Source of the DNA: Mitsuaria sp. PDC51
GTDB lineage: Bacteria; Pseudomonadota; Gammaproteobacteria; Burkholderiales; Burkholderiaceae_C
Direction of reading: 5' to 3'
Length of the DNA stretch: 64,000 nt
Assembly: GCF_900113225.1 (NCBI RefSeq)
Contig: NZ_FOZE01000001.1
Coordinates: 2,294,001-2,358,000 of the forward strand
A program made the translations under genes and the position numbers. Position 1 is the stretch's first letter. The number at the start of each line of letters is the position of its first letter. Positions 34,014-40,000 of the stretch are shown here, in pieces. Below the pieces are notes generated by a model, which ran no database searches, was not told where the DNA came from, and saw nothing but the letters and a program-made list of their open reading frames with translations.

Positions 34014-36200
34014 ATGCGCACCGCCATGCCCGCCATCGCCTCGAACCGCCCGCCGGACTTCCAGATGGAAGGCCTGTGGGCCGCGCTCGGCCGGCTGGAC
34101 CGCATGCTCGAGCGCGCCGCCAACGCCGCCGATGCCGCGGCGGTCCCGGCGGCCGCGGGCGCGCAGCCCGAGCCGTATCGCGGCCTCTACGTCACGACGC
34201 AGGACGTGCAGCGGCTCGTCCGCCAGGGGCCCGGCGAACCGTGGCTGGCCGGCCACGGCCCGGGTGCCGGCGCCGTGGAGCCCGCCGCGCCGCCGCCGAT
34301 GCCCGAGAGCTCGCGTTTCCCATGGCTGCAGCAGGCCTTCGGGCTCGACACCATCGACCTGGACATCGTGCTGGTCGCGCTCGCGCCCGAGGTCGACCTG
34401 CGCTACGAGCGGCTCTATGCCTACCTGCAGGACGACGTGACGCGGCGCAGGCCCACCGTCGACCTCGTGCTCAACCTGCTGTGCGCGTCGCGCGACGCCA
34501 AGATCCTCGCGCGCGCCCGCTTCGGTCCCGAGGCGCCGCTGGTGCGGCACCGGCTGGTGCAACTGGCCGGCGATGCCGGCGCGATCGGCACGCCGCTGCT
34601 GTCGCAGGCGATCAAGCTCGAGGAGCCGGTGGTGCGGCTGCTGCTGGGCCAGCCCTGGCTGGACGCGCGGTTGCGCGGCGTGGCGCGGTTCACCGCGGCG
34701 CCCGAGGCCGGCGAGGGCGGAGCGGCCGACACGCTGGCGCTGAGCCTGTCCAAGGCGCTGGCCGACGGCAGCGGCCCGCAGTTCTACCTGGAGGGCGAAT
34801 CCAGTGCCGGCCAGGAGGCCGCGGCGGCGAAGCTCGCGGCGCGGCTGGGGCAGTCGCTGATCGTCGTCGACCTCGTGCGCGCCGCCGATCCGGCCGACCA
34901 GTTCGCGACCACGCTCGAACTGCTGCTGCGCGAGGCGCACCTGCTGTCGGCGGTCGTCCACCTGCAGGGGCATGACGCGCTGACGAACGCGGAGCGCGGC
35001 ACGCTGGCCCAGGCCCTCGCGGCGCGGACGCCGGCGACGGGGCTCGTGATCGTGATGTCGGGCGCCCGGCCCTGCGATCCGCGCTTTCGCGGCATGGCGT
35101 CGGTGCCGGTGGCCGCGGCCGGCTTCCGCGACCGCCGTGCCGCCTGGACCGCCGGCCTGCGCGGCCAGCGCATCGAGCTCGATCCCCGCGCCCTCGATGA
35201 CCTCGCCGCGCGGTATCCCCTCGACGAGGCGCAGATCGCCGCCGCCACGGCGCATGCGGCGCGCCAGTCCGCCTTGGAGCAGACCACGCCCGACCCGGCC
35301 GCGCTGGCCCGGGCCGCGCGCCAGCAGCTCTCGCGCGACCCCGGCACGCTGGCGCGCAAGCTCGCCCCGCTGCATGTCTGGAACGACCTCGTGTTGCCGC
35401 CGGACGCGATCGCCCAGCTGAAGGAGATCTGCCGCCAGGCGCGCTTTCGCCATGTCGTGTTCGGCGACTGGGGCTTCGATCGCAAGCTCTCCGTCGGCAA
35501 GGGCCTGAGCGCGCTGTTCAGCGGCCCGCCCGGCACCGGCAAGACGATGGCGGTGGAGGTCATCGCCAACGACCTCGGACTGGACCTGTTCAAGATCGAC
35601 CTGTCGCAGGTCGTCAGCAAGTACATCGGCGAAACCGAGAAGAGCATCGACCGCCTGTTCCTCGAGGCGCGCGCGGGCAACGCGATCCTGTTCTTCGACG
35701 AGTGCGACGCGCTCTTCGGCAAGCGCACCACGGTGCAGGACGCGCACGACCGCTACGCCAACATCGAAGTCGCCTACCTGCTGCAGAAGCTCGATGAACA
35801 CGAGGGCCTGAGCATCCTGGCGACCAACCTGCGGCAGAACCTGGACGTGGCCTTCACCCGCCGGCTCGGCTTCATCGTCGACTTCCCGTTCCCCGACGAG
35901 GACAGCCGGCGCCGGCTGTGGGAATCGATCTGGCCGCCCAAGGTGCCGCGCAGCCAGGACCTGGACCTGGGTTTCCTGGCCGCCAACTTCAAGGTGCCCG
36001 GCGGCGCGGTGAAGAACATCGCGGTGGCCGCGGCCTTCCTGGCGGCGGAGCAGGGCGGCGAGCTCAAGACCGAGCACCTGCTGTGGGCCGCGCGGCGCGA
36101 GATCGAGAAGTCCGGCCGGCGCGTCGCCGGCAGCGAGTTCGGCCCCTACGCGGCGCGCGTGGAGGCGTTGGCCCGGCCGGGAGATCGTCATGCTGCATGA
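34014..36200 (+). CDS. eCIS AAA+ ATPase (Cis15/Afp15-like)
   Basis: A 728-residue AAA+ protein. The N-terminal 450 residues are helical and degenerate; the C-terminal AAA module has Walker A GPPGTGKT (about residue 504), Walker B AILFFDECDALFG (about 557-569), a sensor-1 ATN and an arginine-finger region FTRRLGFIVDFPFP. This matches the membrane-protein-associated ATPase that accompanies nearly all extracellular contractile injection systems. It is needed for particle assembly or loading in the Afp/PVC systems, with the mechanism unresolved. Its 3' end overlaps the next gene by 11 bp. Confidence 0.88.
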   Translation: MRTAMPAIASNRPPDFQMEGLWAALGRLDRMLERAANAADAAAVPAAAGAQPEPYRGLYVTTQDVQRLVRQGPGEPWLAGHGPGAGAVEPAAPPPMPESSRFPWLQQAFGLDTIDLDIVLVALAPEVDLRYERLYAYLQDDVTRRRPTVDLVLNLLCASRDAKILARARFGPEAPLVRHRLVQLAGDAGAIGTPLLSQAIKLEEPVVRLLLGQPWLDARLRGVARFTAAPEAGEGGAADTLALSLSKALADGSGPQFYLEGESSAGQEAAAAKLAARLGQSLIVVDLVRAADPADQFATTLELLLREAHLLSAVVHLQGHDALTNAERGTLAQALAARTPATGLVIVMSGARPCDPRFRGMASVPVAAAGFRDRRAAWTAGLRGQRIELDPRALDDLAARYPLDEAQIAAATAHAARQSALEQTTPDPAALARAARQQLSRDPGTLARKLAPLHVWNDLVLPPDAIAQLKEICRQARFRHVVFGDWGFDRKLSVGKGLSALFSGPPGTGKTMAVEVIANDLGLDLFKIDLSQVVSKYIGETEKSIDRLFLEARAGNAILFFDECDALFGKRTTVQDAHDRYANIEVAYLLQKLDEHEGLSILATNLRQNLDVAFTRRLGFIVDFPFPDEDSRRRLWESIWPPKVPRSQDLDLGFLAANFKVPGGAVKNIAVAAAFLAAEQGGELKTEHLLWAARREIEKSGRRVAGSEFGPYAARVEALARPGDRHAA

Positions 36201-37020
36201 GGTCACCGACAGCCTGGAGGCCTTCTTCAAGCAGCCGGGGCTGGCGCCGCCGCTGCGCGACGCGGCGATCCGCTTCGACCGGCCGACCGATCCGTACGCG
36301 CTCGACCAGACCACGGTCAACCTGTTCCTGTTCGAGGTGCGCGAGCACCTGGAGCTGCGCAGCAACGAGCCGGTGACGCGCCGAGTCGGCGGCCAGTCGC
36401 TCGTGGTGCCGCCAGCGTGGCGCGCCAACTGCCTCTACCTGGTCACCGCCTGGCCGGTCGGCGGCACCGACCTGCCCAAGCAGGAGCACCAGCTGCTGGG
36501 CCAGGTGCTGCAGCTGATCGCCGGTTCGCCGGTGATCCCGCCGGCCTTCCTGACGCCGGCGCTGCAGGCGCAGGAGCCGCCGCTGCCGATGCTGATGGTG
36601 CAGCCCGACGGCGTGCGCAACCCGGCGGAGTTCTGGGCCGCGATCGGCAACCGGATCAAGGCCTCGCTGCTGCTGTCGGTGACGGTGTCGCTGGAGGTCT
36701 TCGAGACCGAGACCTATCCCAGCGTCATCACCAGCGAGATCCGCCTGGAATCGCTGCCCGACGGCGCGGCGCTGGAAGCGCCGTTCTTCCGCATCGGCGG
36801 CGTGGTGCGCGACAACGCGTCGGTGCCGGTGGCCAATGCCGGCGTCCAGCTGCTGGGGCGCGGCCGCAGCACGCTGACCGACGCCGAAGGCAAGTTCTCG
36901 CTGTCGGCCGTCGCGGCGGGCAGCTACACCCTGCGCGTGACGGCGGGCGCCGTCACGCGGGACCGTGCCATCGTCGTCCCGGCCCCCGCGGTCGCGGGCT
37001 ACGACGTGCAGTTGATCTGA
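36190..37020 (+). CDS. DUF4255 cap/tail-terminator protein (Cis16/Afp16-like) with extra beta domain
   Basis: A 276-residue protein. Residues 1-195 form the DUF4255 domain (LHEVTDSLEAFF at the start, LFLFEVREHLELR in the middle, YLVTAW and QLLGQVLQLI later), the family that caps the non-contractile end of eCIS tubes and limits length. Residues about 200-276 add a carboxypeptidase-regulatory-like beta-sandwich (IGGVVRDN ... LTDAEGKFSLSAVAAGSYTLRV). Such domains often bind surfaces or sugars. The extension would be displayed at the distal end of the particle, which is inference. Confidence 0.85.
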   Translation: MLHEVTDSLEAFFKQPGLAPPLRDAAIRFDRPTDPYALDQTTVNLFLFEVREHLELRSNEPVTRRVGGQSLVVPPAWRANCLYLVTAWPVGGTDLPKQEHQLLGQVLQLIAGSPVIPPAFLTPALQAQEPPLPMLMVQPDGVRNPAEFWAAIGNRIKASLLLSVTVSLEVFETETYPSVITSEIRLESLPDGAALEAPFFRIGGVVRDNASVPVANAGVQLLGRGRSTLTDAEGKFSLSAVAAGSYTLRVTAGAVTRDRAIVVPAPAVAGYDVQLI

Positions 37021-37036: not shown

Positions 37037-38218
37037 ATGGCTAACTATTTCGCACCCGGCGTCTACGTCGAAGAAGTCCCGCCCGTCGCCCGGCCGATCG
37101 CCGGCGTGGGCACCAGCACGGCCGCCTTCATCGGCGTGGCCGACCGGCTCGATCCGGCCGATGTCGGCAAACCGAGGAAGTTCACCAACTGGGGCGAGTT
37201 CGCCACCTTCATCGTCGGCGCCGGCGCCACGCCGACGACGCCCATCCACACCACCGCCAACCGCATGCTGGCGCTGGCGGTGTTCGGCTTCTTCGCCAAC
37301 GGCGGCACCACCTGCTACGTGGTGCCGGTCGCGGCCGGCGGGCTGGCCAACCTGCAGGCGCCGCTGGAGACGCTCAAGGCCTTCGACGACATCGCCATCG
37401 TCGCCGCGCCCGGCGCGCAGGGCACCGCCGCCAAGGTCCAGCTGATGGACCACTGCTTCGAGATGCAGGACCGGGTGGCCGTGCTCGACGGCGAGCACGC
37501 GCCCGCCTCCGACAGCACGCCCGCCGACATCTACGGCGGCCCCATGCCCGGCGGCGGCCCGTCCACGCCGGACAAGTTCAGCTACGGCGCGATCTACTTC
37601 CCGTGGGTCAAGGTCTTCAATCCGCTGTTCACCGGCACCGGGCCGGAGACCGAGCTGATCGACCAGCCGCCCAGCGGCCACGTGGCCGGCATCTGGGCCC
37701 GCGTGGACGCCACGCGCGGCGTGCACAAGGCACCGGCCAACGAGGGCGTGATCGGCATCGTCGACCTGGAGCGGCCGATGGGCAAGGACAAGCAGGTCAG
37801 CCTGAACCCCCCCGGCATCAACGTGATCCGGCCCTTCGGCGGCTCGCCGATGGTCTACGGCGCGCGCACGCTCGGCGGCGACCGCAACGGGGAATACCGC
37901 TACCTCAACGTGCGGCGCTTCATGAACTTCCTGAAGGAATCGATCGACGAGGGCACGCAGTTCGTCGTCTTCGAGCCCAACTCGCCGGCGCTGTGGCAGC
38001 GGATCATCCGCTCGGTCAGCGACTTCCTCTACAACCAGTGGCGCGACGGCGCGCTGTTCGGCGCGACAGCGAAGGAAGCCTTCTTCGTCAAGTGCGACCT
38101 CGAGACCAATCCGGCCAGCGAGCGCGAGGCCGGGCGCGTCATCACCGAGATCGGCGTGGCGGTCGTCAAGCCCGCGGAGTTCGTCATCTTCCGCATCCAG
38201 CAGAACACCGGCGCCTGA
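37037..38218 (+). CDS. Contractile tail sheath protein
   Basis: A 393-residue phage-tail-sheath homologue. The N-terminus YFAPGVYVEEV and GTSTAAFIGVA are sheath hallmarks, and the C-terminal domain (from ERPMGKDKQVSLNPPGINVIR on) contains the conserved RRFMNFLKESIDEGTQFVVFEPN block and the interlocking C-terminal arm. There is only one sheath gene here, whereas Afp and PVC carry three. The sheath surrounds the tube and contracts to drive the spike. It lies 16 nt after the cap gene and 11 nt before the tube gene. Confidence 0.93.
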   Translation: MANYFAPGVYVEEVPPVARPIAGVGTSTAAFIGVADRLDPADVGKPRKFTNWGEFATFIVGAGATPTTPIHTTANRMLALAVFGFFANGGTTCYVVPVAAGGLANLQAPLETLKAFDDIAIVAAPGAQGTAAKVQLMDHCFEMQDRVAVLDGEHAPASDSTPADIYGGPMPGGGPSTPDKFSYGAIYFPWVKVFNPLFTGTGPETELIDQPPSGHVAGIWARVDATRGVHKAPANEGVIGIVDLERPMGKDKQVSLNPPGINVIRPFGGSPMVYGARTLGGDRNGEYRYLNVRRFMNFLKESIDEGTQFVVFEPNSPALWQRIIRSVSDFLYNQWRDGALFGATAKEAFFVKCDLETNPASEREAGRVITEIGVAVVKPAEFVIFRIQQNTGA

Positions 38219-38229
38219 GGAGAGCAGAC

Positions 38230-38655
38230 ATGGCCAGAAAAGATCCCTATCGCAACTTCCGCTTCCTGGTGGAGATCGACGGCATCGTGCAGGCCGGCTT
38301 CGCGGAGTGCAGCGGCTTCGGCTCCAACATCGAGGTGGTCGAGTACCGCGAGGGCGGCGAGGTCGCCACCGTGCGCAAGCTGCCCGGCAAGGTGTCCTAT
38401 CCCGACATCACGCTCAAGTGGGGCGTGACCGACTCGCGCGAGCTCTACGACTGGCACCTGGCCGCGGTCAACGGGACCATCGACCGGCGCAACGGCTCGA
38501 TCATCCTGCAGGACGACGCGGGGCAGGAGAAGGTGCGCTGGAACTTCTTCAGCGCCTGGCCCAGCAAGTACGACGGGCCGGACTTCAACGCCAAGGGCAA
38601 CGACGTGTCGCTGGACGCGCTGACGGTGAGCTGCGAACGCGTCGAGCGCGCCTGA
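38230..38655 (+). CDS. Tail tube protein (Hcp/gp19-like)
   Basis: A 141-residue tube protein of the phage T4 gp19/eCIS type: DPYRNFRFLVEIDGIVQAGFAECSGF at the N-terminus, VEYREGGE and LPGKVSYPDITLKWG in the middle. These match the inner-tube family that polymerises into hexameric rings. It follows the sheath gene directly (start at 38230). A single tube gene is present in the window, so the same protein presumably forms the whole tube. Confidence 0.92.
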   Translation: MARKDPYRNFRFLVEIDGIVQAGFAECSGFGSNIEVVEYREGGEVATVRKLPGKVSYPDITLKWGVTDSRELYDWHLAAVNGTIDRRNGSIILQDDAGQEKVRWNFFSAWPSKYDGPDFNAKGNDVSLDALTVSCERVERA

Positions 38656-38668
38656 ACCGGGGTGCACC

Positions 38669-39034
38669 ATGTTCCAGACCGAGTTCGAGTTCACGCTGCC
38701 GCTGGGGTATGTCGACGCCGACGGCGACCTGCATCGCGAGGGCGTGATGCGCCTGGCCACCGCGGCTGACGAGATCCTGCCGCTGCGCGACCCGCGGGTG
38801 CAGGGCAACGAGGCCTACCTGACCATCATCCTGCTGTCGCGCGTGCTGTCGCGGCTCGGCTCGGTGGGGCAGGTCACGCCCAAGGTGGTCGAGGGCCTCT
38901 ACGCGGCCGACCTGGCCTACCTGCAGGAGTTCTACAACCGCATCAACCGCAGCGGCCGCGCCACGATCGAGGCCGCCTGCCCGAAGTGCGCGCACGAGTT
39001 CGCGATGGAGATGAACAGCCCGGGGGGATCGTAG
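38669..39034 (+). CDS. Phage-tail assembly chaperone-like protein (short, zero-frame product)
   Basis: A 121-residue cytoplasmic protein placed directly after the tube gene, where phages encode their tail-assembly chaperones. It has a beta-rich N-terminus (FEFTLPLGYVDADG), helices with ILLSRVLSRLG and YLQEFYNRINR, and a C-terminal CPKC pair that may bind metal. The reading frame ends CCG GGG GGA TCG TAG. The stop lies right after a slippery G-run and in front of a strong hairpin, so a fraction of ribosomes is expected to shift -1 and continue into the DUF6760 frame, giving a product of about 175 residues. Confidence 0.85.
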   Translation: MFQTEFEFTLPLGYVDADGDLHREGVMRLATAADEILPLRDPRVQGNEAYLTIILLSRVLSRLGSVGQVTPKVVEGLYAADLAYLQEFYNRINRSGRATIEAACPKCAHEFAMEMNSPGGS

Positions 39035-39195
39035 GCTACCCCCTGTCCGCGCTGTACAGGGAGGTAGCCTTCGTCGCCTACCACTTCCACTGGTCGCACG
39101 AGGACGTGCTCCTGCTCGAGCACAAGGAGCGCCAGCGCTGGGTGGAGGAGATCTCCGCGATCAACGACAGAGCCAACAGCGAAGCCGTTCAGTGA
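38986..39195 (+). CDS. DUF6760-type small protein (Cis6-like), probably made by -1 frameshift
   Basis: The frame encodes VGYPLSALYREVAFVAYHFHWSHED and then EHKERQRWVEEISAIND, the small DUF6760 protein found beside tube and hub genes of eCIS. It has no ATG and no ribosome binding site; the only start-like codon is a GTG at 38986 deep inside the preceding gene. The conserved part begins at about 39028, exactly after the slippery site of the upstream frame. It is therefore most likely the C-terminal extension of the tail-assembly chaperone, like lambda G-T. Independent initiation at 38986 remains the alternative. Confidence 0.75.
   Translation: MRARVRDGDEQPGGIVGYPLSALYREVAFVAYHFHWSHEDVLLLEHKERQRWVEEISAINDRANSEAVQ
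39007..39069 (+). other. Programmed -1 ribosomal frameshift cassette
   Basis: Four elements are in register: an SD-like GGAG at 39007-39010; 11 nt later the heptamer G_GGG_GGA at 39022-39028 (with an overlapping C_CCG_GGG); the zero-frame stop TAG at 39032-39034; and, after a 5-nt spacer, a hairpin at 39034-39069. The stem pairs GGCTACC with GGTAGCC and CCCTGT with ACAGGG (13 bp, one bulged A, 9-nt loop). The arrangement matches dnaX- and lambda G/T-type frameshift signals. AGG and GTA codons inside the 3' arm are unusual for this genome and suggest selection for the stem. Confidence 0.82.
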
Positions 39196-39211
39196 CACCA
39201 CAGGAGTCGAC

Positions 39212-40000
39212 GTGAACCAATGGCAAGCATGGGCAGGGCGTCTGCGCGCGCGGCATGGCCGCGTCGACGCGTGGCGCGCGGCCGGCGAGATGGCGCTGCG
39301 ACGCGGCGCCGGCGCGGCCGGCACCGTCGTGCAAGCGCACGCGGGACCGGTCATCCACCAGCACCTGCGGCTGGCGGTCACGGCGCGTTTCCCGCTGAGC
39401 CTGCGCGCCCGGCCGGCGGCGCCGATGGTGCTGCGCCAGCCGATGCCCGTGGGTGCCCTGCAGGCGCCCGCCGAGACCCCTCGCATGACCATCGCGAGCG
39501 CCGGACCCGATGGCCGCCCGGGGCGGCCCGGACCCGCGGGACCGGACGGCGCGCCCGGACATCCGGGCGAGATGGCGAGCGTGCCGATGACGCACCGCAT
39601 GGCCGCGCCGCTCTTCGTGCCGGCCAGGGAGGCGACCGCGCGGCCGATGCTGGCGGCGTCGCCGTCCGCGCCGGTGCTGCGTGCCGGGGTCCAGCCGATC
39701 GCGCCGGTCGCGGCCGCGCATGCGGCGCAGATCGCGACGCGCCTGCGCCGCGGCGCCACGCGCGAGGAACTGCCGCCGGCCCCGTCCGCGGCGGTGCTGA
39801 CCGCGCCGGGACGCGCGGCGGCGCGCGCCGCCGAGGCCGAGGCGAAGGCCGCCGTGCAGGCCGCCGCCCGCCAGCAGCCGAGCGCGCCGCCTCAGGCACC
39901 CGCCGCGCCCGCGGTGGACGTCGACGCGCTGACCGGCCTGGTGATCCAGCAGATCGACCGCCGCCTGGTCGCCTGGCGCGAACGGATGGGGAGGGTCTGA
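39212..40000 (+). CDS. eCIS-associated linker protein with short collagen-like stretch
   Basis: A 262-residue protein starting at GTG (39212) with CAGGAG upstream. An Arg-rich helical N-terminus and a beta segment precede a collagen-like run of Gly-X-Y triplets (GRPGRPGPAGPDGAPGHPGE, residues about 101-120). Ala/Pro-rich low complexity follows, and then a conserved-looking C-terminus VDVDALTGLVIQQIDRRLVAWRERMGRV. The C-terminal helix resembles one seen in many unnamed eCIS proteins at this position, before the LysM hub gene. I do not recognise a family. It might be a baseplate accessory or inner scaffold; it is much shorter than a normal tape-measure protein. Confidence 0.65.
   Translation: MNQWQAWAGRLRARHGRVDAWRAAGEMALRRGAGAAGTVVQAHAGPVIHQHLRLAVTARFPLSLRARPAAPMVLRQPMPVGALQAPAETPRMTIASAGPDGRPGRPGPAGPDGAPGHPGEMASVPMTHRMAAPLFVPAREATARPMLAASPSAPVLRAGVQPIAPVAAAHAAQIATRLRRGATREELPPAPSAAVLTAPGRAAARAAEAEAKAAVQAAARQQPSAPPQAPAAPAVDVDALTGLVIQQIDRRLVAWRERMGRV

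Follow-up and report, generated by a model that had tools for sequence, protein, structure and literature searches.

A conserved -1 frameshift signal predicted to join the tail-assembly chaperone to DUF6760 in extracellular contractile injection systems

Introduction

Contractile-tailed phages make a long form of their tail-assembly chaperone by -1 slippage. In the tail operon of lambda, whose tail is long and non-contractile, a short chaperone, gpG, is made together with a minor -1 fusion, gpGT (heptamer G_GGA_AAG), and GT brings tube subunits to the growing tail. The dnaX gene uses the heptamer A_AAA_AAG, and frameshifting there yields a short product. The window analysed here is a stretch of 64,000 nucleotides from Mitsuaria sp. 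PDC51 and contains a chaperone gene of this kind, followed in the -1 frame by DUF6760. Is DUF6760 translated as a protein of its own, or is it a frameshift extension of the chaperone? A preliminary description of the same DNA had proposed a programmed -1 frameshift that fuses the two. We know of no -1 frameshift described in an extracellular contractile injection system (eCIS).

Loci and counting rules

In the plasmid sample, 35 records matched DUF6760, and 19 of them were examined. A profile search of genome contigs with a 15-row alignment gave at least 587 confirmed stretches, the best 80 of which, picked by likeness to the window, are L030-L109. The viral sample comprised 20 contigs and 3 more, one of them unusable (L010, which ends inside the chaperone). 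For the census, which is the least biased sample, the Pfam model was run on genomes drawn evenly within six groups, which are named from the titles of their centre genomes. These were the window's own class, with 369 genomes, and five phyla, those around a Calothrix (194 genomes), a Streptomyces (296), a Brevibacillus (249), a Methanosarcina (246) and an Anaerolineales genome (201). Once the centre genomes had been taken out, together with the match in the window itself and two sub-threshold matches, 73 census loci remained, all distinct (2, 20, 18, 5, 13 and 15, respectively). The pooled set consists of 194 eCIS-type loci, 179 of them distinct.

Two weak viral matches from residue 14 on (L119 and L120) and two matches below the Pfam cut-off (L006 and L007) were left out of the counts, and the own-species copy, L030, was left out of the heptamer, stem, Shine-Dalgarno (SD), tree and codon counts. 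Two degenerate Streptomyces fragments were left uncounted. The heptamer patterns counted were X_XXY_YYZ and G_GGG_GAR. The tree of chaperone plus DUF6760 contains 163 of 197 rows after removal of near-copies; it omits L107/L136 (one locus seen twice, with four Gs and a frame misfit), L025 and L142 (short zero-frame ORF) and L174 (chaperone match out of register). In the synonymous-recoding control, the DUF6760 frame was recoded with synonymous codons of the same locus.

Results and discussion

The chaperone-DUF6760 junction in Mitsuaria sp. PDC51

The window carries, in one cluster, genes for a sheath, a T4 gp19-type tube, a CIS_tube protein with LysM, a base_V spike, PAAR, gp25, two baseplate J proteins, an AAA ATPase and a Pvc16-type protein. 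Judged by this set of sheath, tube, spike, baseplate and ATPase genes, the cluster is an eCIS. The Pvc16-type protein (36190-37020) has a C-terminal carboxypeptidase-regulatory-like domain (PF13620, E 3.8e-12), and an ORF 3' of DUF6760 (39212-40000) contains a short collagen-like G-x-y stretch (PF01391, 21.7 bits, below the cut-off of 27.2). The features at and near the junction are as follows.

37037..38218, + strand, tail sheath gene (PF17482, E 9.9e-17; PF04984, E 2.3e-13)
38230..38655, + strand, tail tube gene, directly 5' of the chaperone gene (start 38230; Phage_T4_gp19, E 3.1e-42)
38669..39034, + strand, zero-frame chaperone ORF of 121 residues, predicted to give the short product (PHROG 508, E 6e-7)
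39007..39010, + strand, SD-like GGAG, read from the sequence, 11 nt 5' of the heptamer
39022..39028, + strand, slippery heptamer G_GGG_GGA in the register X_XXY_YYZ
39022..39195, + strand, -1 frame with the DUF6760 extension, which with 38669-39028 gives the predicted 175-residue fusion
39032..39034, + strand, zero-frame stop TAG of the chaperone, three bases past the heptamer
39033..39070, + strand, stem-loop, proposed stimulator (arms 39033-39046 and 39056-39070, bulged A at 39062)
39065..39067, + strand, second zero-frame TAG, a possible backup stop, formed from a conserved GTA codon in the 3' arm

The zero frame at the junction reads ...ATG GAG ATG AAC AGC CCG GGG GGA TCG TAG, and the -1 frame reads GGG GGG ATC GTA GGC TAC..., encoding GGIVGYP...VQ up to a stop at 39193-39195. 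The arrangement given in the preliminary description, with GGAG 11 nt before an in-register G_GGG_GGA, a zero-frame TAG behind it and the whole gene lying right behind the tube gene, was confirmed from the letters. Its hairpin of 13 bp with a bulged A was also found, but the stem is one pair longer (A39033-U39070), giving 14 bp and one bulged A, and starts 4-5 nt after the heptamer. The minimum free energy of this hairpin is -26.7 kcal/mol (z -3.8), and none of 200 shuffled sequences was equally stable. RNAalifold on relatives indicates that, absent a ribosome, the G-run of the heptamer could pair with the C-run of the 5' arm (39022-39041). No Rfam 15 family matched 38600-39300 at E values up to 1.

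Tandem slippage at the heptamer would join 120 residues of the chaperone to 55 of the extension, which agrees with the fusion of about 175 residues proposed earlier; the tryptic peptide predicted to span the fusion junction is CAHEFAMEMNSPGGIVGYPLSALYR. As also described before, DUF6760 lacks an ATG and a ribosome-binding site of its own. There is no ATG, GTG or TTG between the heptamer and the DUF6760 core. Further 5', the open -1 frame offers a single such codon, GTG 38986, which falls within the chaperone gene and has no well-spaced SD sequence.

The -1 frame is a member of the Pfam family PF20546 (DUF6760; E 4.9e-20, 71.8 bits against a gathering cut-off of 27), which Pfam treats as a stand-alone domain. 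It has a 100% match in Mitsuaria sp. GD03876. In the genome of the window, no second DUF6760 match at E <= 0.001 was detected. The chaperone alone passed no family cut-off in Pfam, and its structure prediction was poor (mean pLDDT 54.7). In its three parts, namely an upstream SD-like motif, a heptamer and a hairpin at about 5 nt, the signal resembles that of dnaX; the dnaX shift, however, makes a short product, whereas the eCIS shift would make a long one.

Conservation of the heptamer and the register

The anatomy of the junction, its register, stem, conservation and homology are evident from the sequences compared here. An in-register heptamer is present in the overlap in 66 of the 73 census loci, against a background of 0.39% per codon (74 hits among the 18,869 codons that make up the chaperone bodies at 202 loci, including duplicates and nine phage loci). 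Heptamer-bearing loci make up 2/2 in the class of the window, 20/20 in the Calothrix group, 12/18 in the Streptomyces group, 5/5 in the Brevibacillus group, 12/13 in the Methanosarcina group and 15/15 in the Anaerolineales group. The earlier proposal that DUF6760 is in general a frameshift extension thus holds for these 66 loci, and the other seven have no heptamer. A tube gene lies 5' in 70 of the 73 loci, and two of the remaining three have less than 800 nt of upstream sequence.

Counting the last heptamer of each census locus, GGGGGAA occurs in 29 loci, GGGGGAG in 16, GGGGGGG in 10 and GGGAAAT in 5, and GGGGGGC, GGGGGGA, TTTTTTA, TTTTTTG, AAATTTT and AAACCCA occur in one each. The locus with AAACCCA (L188) also has GGGAAAC, each of them placed more to the 5' side than the heptamer of related loci. 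The commonest pattern, G_GGG_GAR (45 of 66), is not strictly X_XXY_YYZ; slippage there would be explained if the A-site tRNA-Glu re-pairs with GGA via a middle G.U pair.

In the pooled set, the chaperone lies in the frame that needs a -1 shift and ends no more than 330 nt 5' of the core in 189 of 194 loci; the loci outside this register are L025, L107 and L136 (one locus), L142 and L174. Of 157 loci that encode Gly-Gly in the -1 frame, 155 use GGG for the first Gly, compared with 288 of 1345 Gly codons elsewhere, so that the dipeptide does not explain the G-run. The class of the heptamer varies while the register is kept: it is mostly G5-7, with T6 or A3T3 in Bacillota and G_GGA_AAY in haloarchaea. 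On the tree, 135 rows have the G class, 13 have T6/A3T3 (nine phage and four Bacillota rows), six haloarchaeal rows with GGGAAAY form one supported clade, and nine have no heptamer (L070, L071, L117, L166, L171, L173, L176, L177 and L195); coupling is the probable mode in those of the nine that have a start at the stop. At least 10 changes of heptamer class are required, nine of them within eCIS, on a tree whose bootstrap had not fully settled.

Several loci depart from this layout or add to it. The Methanosarcina MAG locus L107 (2497-2554) has four Gs instead of five and chaperone and DUF6760 frames that do not fit, owing either to a sequencing error or to a real loss. Deinococcus plasmids with sheath and tube genes (L211, L212 and L213), which served as a negative control, keep the chaperone and show neither DUF6760 nor a heptamer; DUF6760 was seen neither behind the chaperone nor among the plasmid matches, and no in-register heptamer was found in the last 30 codons of these three chaperones (of four records). 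In 29 of 194 loci, of which 27 come from cyanobacterial records (e.g. L014, L059, L067 and L072), a second chaperone match lies 330-1000 nt 5' of the DUF6760 core, and the downstream copy adjoins DUF6760. A natural in-frame fusion of chaperone and DUF6760, sought as a Rosetta-stone test, was found in 0 of 194 loci; L025 and L174, which have both in one frame, carry a stop between them.

The downstream stem and the SD-like motif

In the common stem, the GGC TAC C codons pair with G GTA GCC of the codons for E-V-A. Among the 141 loci that are not of the second stem type described below, 89.0% of cells are paired, compared with 30-58% when the arms are slid; the values are 85.4% versus 30-57% for the 81 redundancy-reduced loci among them, and 89.5% versus 30-58% for 60 G5-bearing rows. 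Changes on both sides of a pair were found at 7 of 10 pairs in the 81-locus set (32 cells versus 13.1 in shuffles). The second stem type, found in 24 actinobacterial and Chloroflexi loci, has the unrelated sequence GACGTACGCG/CGCGTACGTC; its pairing over 21 rows is 87.7% versus 7-51% slid, in a register chosen after a first try one base off (21% paired). The comparison of loci called for by the preliminary description gave a conserved heptamer, register, overlap and stem, with both-side changes in the pairs.

Under the synonymous-recoding control, real sequences fold more stably on average over 181 loci (mean z -2.43; p <= 0.05 in 129). The mean z is -3.04 for 112 loci with the common stem, a group whose mean is inflated because eight stem bases served to select it, without effect on the overall mean; it is -2.07 for the 24 loci with the second stem and -1.31 for the other 36. 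GTA is used for the Val of the 3' arm at 127 of 163 loci versus 194 of 1897 Val codons elsewhere, and since GTA also forms the second zero-frame TAG, part of this bias may be for the backup stop.

Covariation methods gave mixed results. With default settings, RNAalifold found no stem in alignment A5, three stem pairs in A6 and the heptamer-arm pairing in A8; without the heptamer columns, it found none, three and four stem pairs, respectively. With RIBOSUM scoring, the proposed stems and some inner pairs were recovered on A5, A6 and A8. Compensation on independent tree pairs was not significant for G-C to A-U (3.9 to 0.0, median p 0.125), C-G to U-A (3.8 to 0.5, p 0.25) or U-A to C-G (0.9 to 0.2, p 1). 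A large Fisher value for G-C/A-U at one pair was set aside because it ignores relatedness and the tree-corrected test was not significant.

Of 179 loci, 86 have GGAG, GAGG or AGGA as an SD-like motif 6-15 nt 5' of the heptamer, compared with 39.2 expected from synonymous recoding, a count that ignores relatedness and duplicates.

Relationship to phage tail-assembly chaperones

In nine viral contigs (L121-L129), T_TTT_TTN stands in register at the same place as the eCIS heptamer in 9/9, and PF20546 matches the -1 extension of all nine. Profile comparison by hhalign relates DUF6760 to these extensions (98.8%, E 1e-16) and the eCIS chaperones to the phage chaperones (98.2%, E 6e-14). The window chaperone and DUF6760 had no match in 50,697 annotated phage records (tblastn, E 0.01), indicating that the relation to phage proteins is remote. 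On these comparisons, the eCIS chaperone is remotely homologous to a phage chaperone, and DUF6760 to the -1 extension of that chaperone.

PF10109 ('E, or 41 or 14') matches two of the nine phage chaperones (best 1.3e-6), from which the nine may be labelled Mu/P2-type. Weak matches were obtained to PF06528 (P2 GpE) in 4 of 15 DUF6760 proteins, that of the window not among them (best E 0.0017), and to PF23746 (Gp41_Mu) in 10 of 23 eCIS chaperones (best E 0.017). We take PF10109, PF23746 and PF06528 to represent the Mu gp41/gp42-type and P2 E/E+E' chaperones with a -1 frameshift. The eCIS loci share with this type a chaperone behind the tube gene, a -1 shift just before the stop, and a short C-terminal extension with a YHxHW core. 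They differ in that the window chaperone belongs to a non-phage injection system, in that the eCIS heptamers are G-rich or GGGAAAY and those of the phage loci T_TTT_TTN, and in that a conserved downstream stem is present, whereas the nine phage loci hardly show one (recoding control, mean z -0.29; p <= 0.05 in 2/9). The preliminary description drew its parallel with lambda; the relatives found here are of the PF10109 kind (P2 E, Mu gp41), closer than lambda. What the eCIS loci would share with lambda is the layout, a short chaperone plus a minor -1 fusion at that place in the tail operon, and haloarchaeal G_GGA_AAY resembles lambda G_GGA_AAG.

Separate translation and other explanations

DUF6760 could instead be a separate small protein made by termination-reinitiation at a start that overlaps the chaperone stop and uses the G-run as its Shine-Dalgarno sequence. 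Such a start exists at some loci. It lies at codon -11 in six of the seven heptamer-less census loci, sharing a base with the stop in five, and with the start at or beside the stop there, coupling probably replaces frameshifting at these loci. Brevibacillus shows GGAGGG...ATGA, and 24 of the 66 heptamer-bearing census loci also have a start that shares a base with the stop (25 by a looser count, codons -12 to -10), so that coupling could add to or replace slippage at those loci. The window, however, has ATC GTA at that place and no start, and in 31 of the 73 census loci, 30 of them with a heptamer, the DUF6760 frame is free of ATG, GTG and TTG all the way from its upstream stop to the core; deposited annotations give DUF6760 starts such as ATA (L013) and ATT (L020). 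Over 179 heptamer-bearing loci (167 distinct), the chaperone stop is TAG in 72, TAA in 49 and TGA in 58, and a start shares a base with it in 0, 1 and 47, respectively; only 1 of the 121 TAG or TAA loci thus has one. TGA forces NTG in the -1 frame and CTG occurs in eight loci, so that GTGA in Streptomyces appears in the main to follow from the choice of stop codon, with initiation there a possibility. Ahead of any such start, Gly-Gly is almost always encoded by GGG GGR, and the T6 variants are no SD sequences. As an account of the junction, coupling is therefore unlikely. The case named earlier as one that would speak against a frameshift, a DUF6760 gene with its own start and no slippery site, was encountered in a diverged actinobacterial group, in Brevibacillus and at one archaeal locus. 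A Haloferax locus with its own ATG overlapping the stop was considered as a counter-example and rejected: its relatives L184, L185 and L187 have no start there, and as the group shares an in-register G_GGA_AAY, frameshifting at a different heptamer is the better reading.

Initiation at GTG 38986 would release a free DUF6760 protein of 69 residues, and that ORF is present; given the lack of a well-spaced SD sequence and of any start in the open frame up to the core in those 31 census loci, this is very improbable. Conservation for protein coding alone, with the chaperone acting by itself and DUF6760 rarely made, would account for arms that lie in conserved codons, because GYP and EEVA are conserved residues. 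Yet the excess stability is still seen against synonymous recoding, in which the protein stays the same, and the codons used at Gly -13 and Val 15 deviate strongly from background, which leaves this explanation scarcely credible.

Proposed mechanism and significance

A programmed -1 frameshift that fuses the chaperone to DUF6760, as proposed in the preliminary description, is supported by the conserved register, heptamer, overlap and stem. The eCIS chaperone gene would thus very probably make two proteins, the 121-residue chaperone and a chaperone-DUF6760 fusion of a predicted 175 residues; slippage itself and its rate we infer. Most ribosomes would end at TAG 39032 and release the chaperone. 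A fraction would pause on G_GGG_GGA because of the hairpin 3' of it and, with the SD-like GGAG assisting, slip one base back with both glycine tRNAs re-paired and read on into DUF6760. By analogy with lambda G/GT and P2 E/E+E', the tape measure is probably coated by the short form, and the long form, the rarer of the two, would bring tube subunits via DUF6760. It is possible that DUF6760 acts as a bridge of assembly factors to the baseplate in a set ratio.

On the sequences sampled, a phage tail-chaperone strategy is kept by a non-phage injection system at most DUF6760 loci. The -1 signal is likely to have been maintained in non-phage contractile injection systems of many bacterial phyla and several archaeal lineages. 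Because the heptamer has been replaced in at least two lineages and the stem in the actinobacterial/Chloroflexi group while the register stayed fixed, the ratio of chaperone to chaperone-DUF6760 itself is likely to be under selection. The mechanism is a known phage strategy; what appears new, to our knowledge, is its presence in eCIS, the archaeal spread, the exchange of heptamers and stems between lineages and the assignment of DUF6760 as the extension.

If this is true, the signal would be one of few conserved frameshift signals in archaea, and a second, minor chaperone isoform is predicted in the eCIS of many organisms, which reconstitution, engineering and cryo-EM of eCIS particles would need to include. 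The natural combinations of heptamer and stem, archaeal ones included, may be usable for frameshifting studies. DUF6760, which has no assigned function and is annotated as a small protein standing on its own, would gain a mechanism and an ancestry, and the finding suggests that domesticated tail machines keep the ratio-setting device of the phage.
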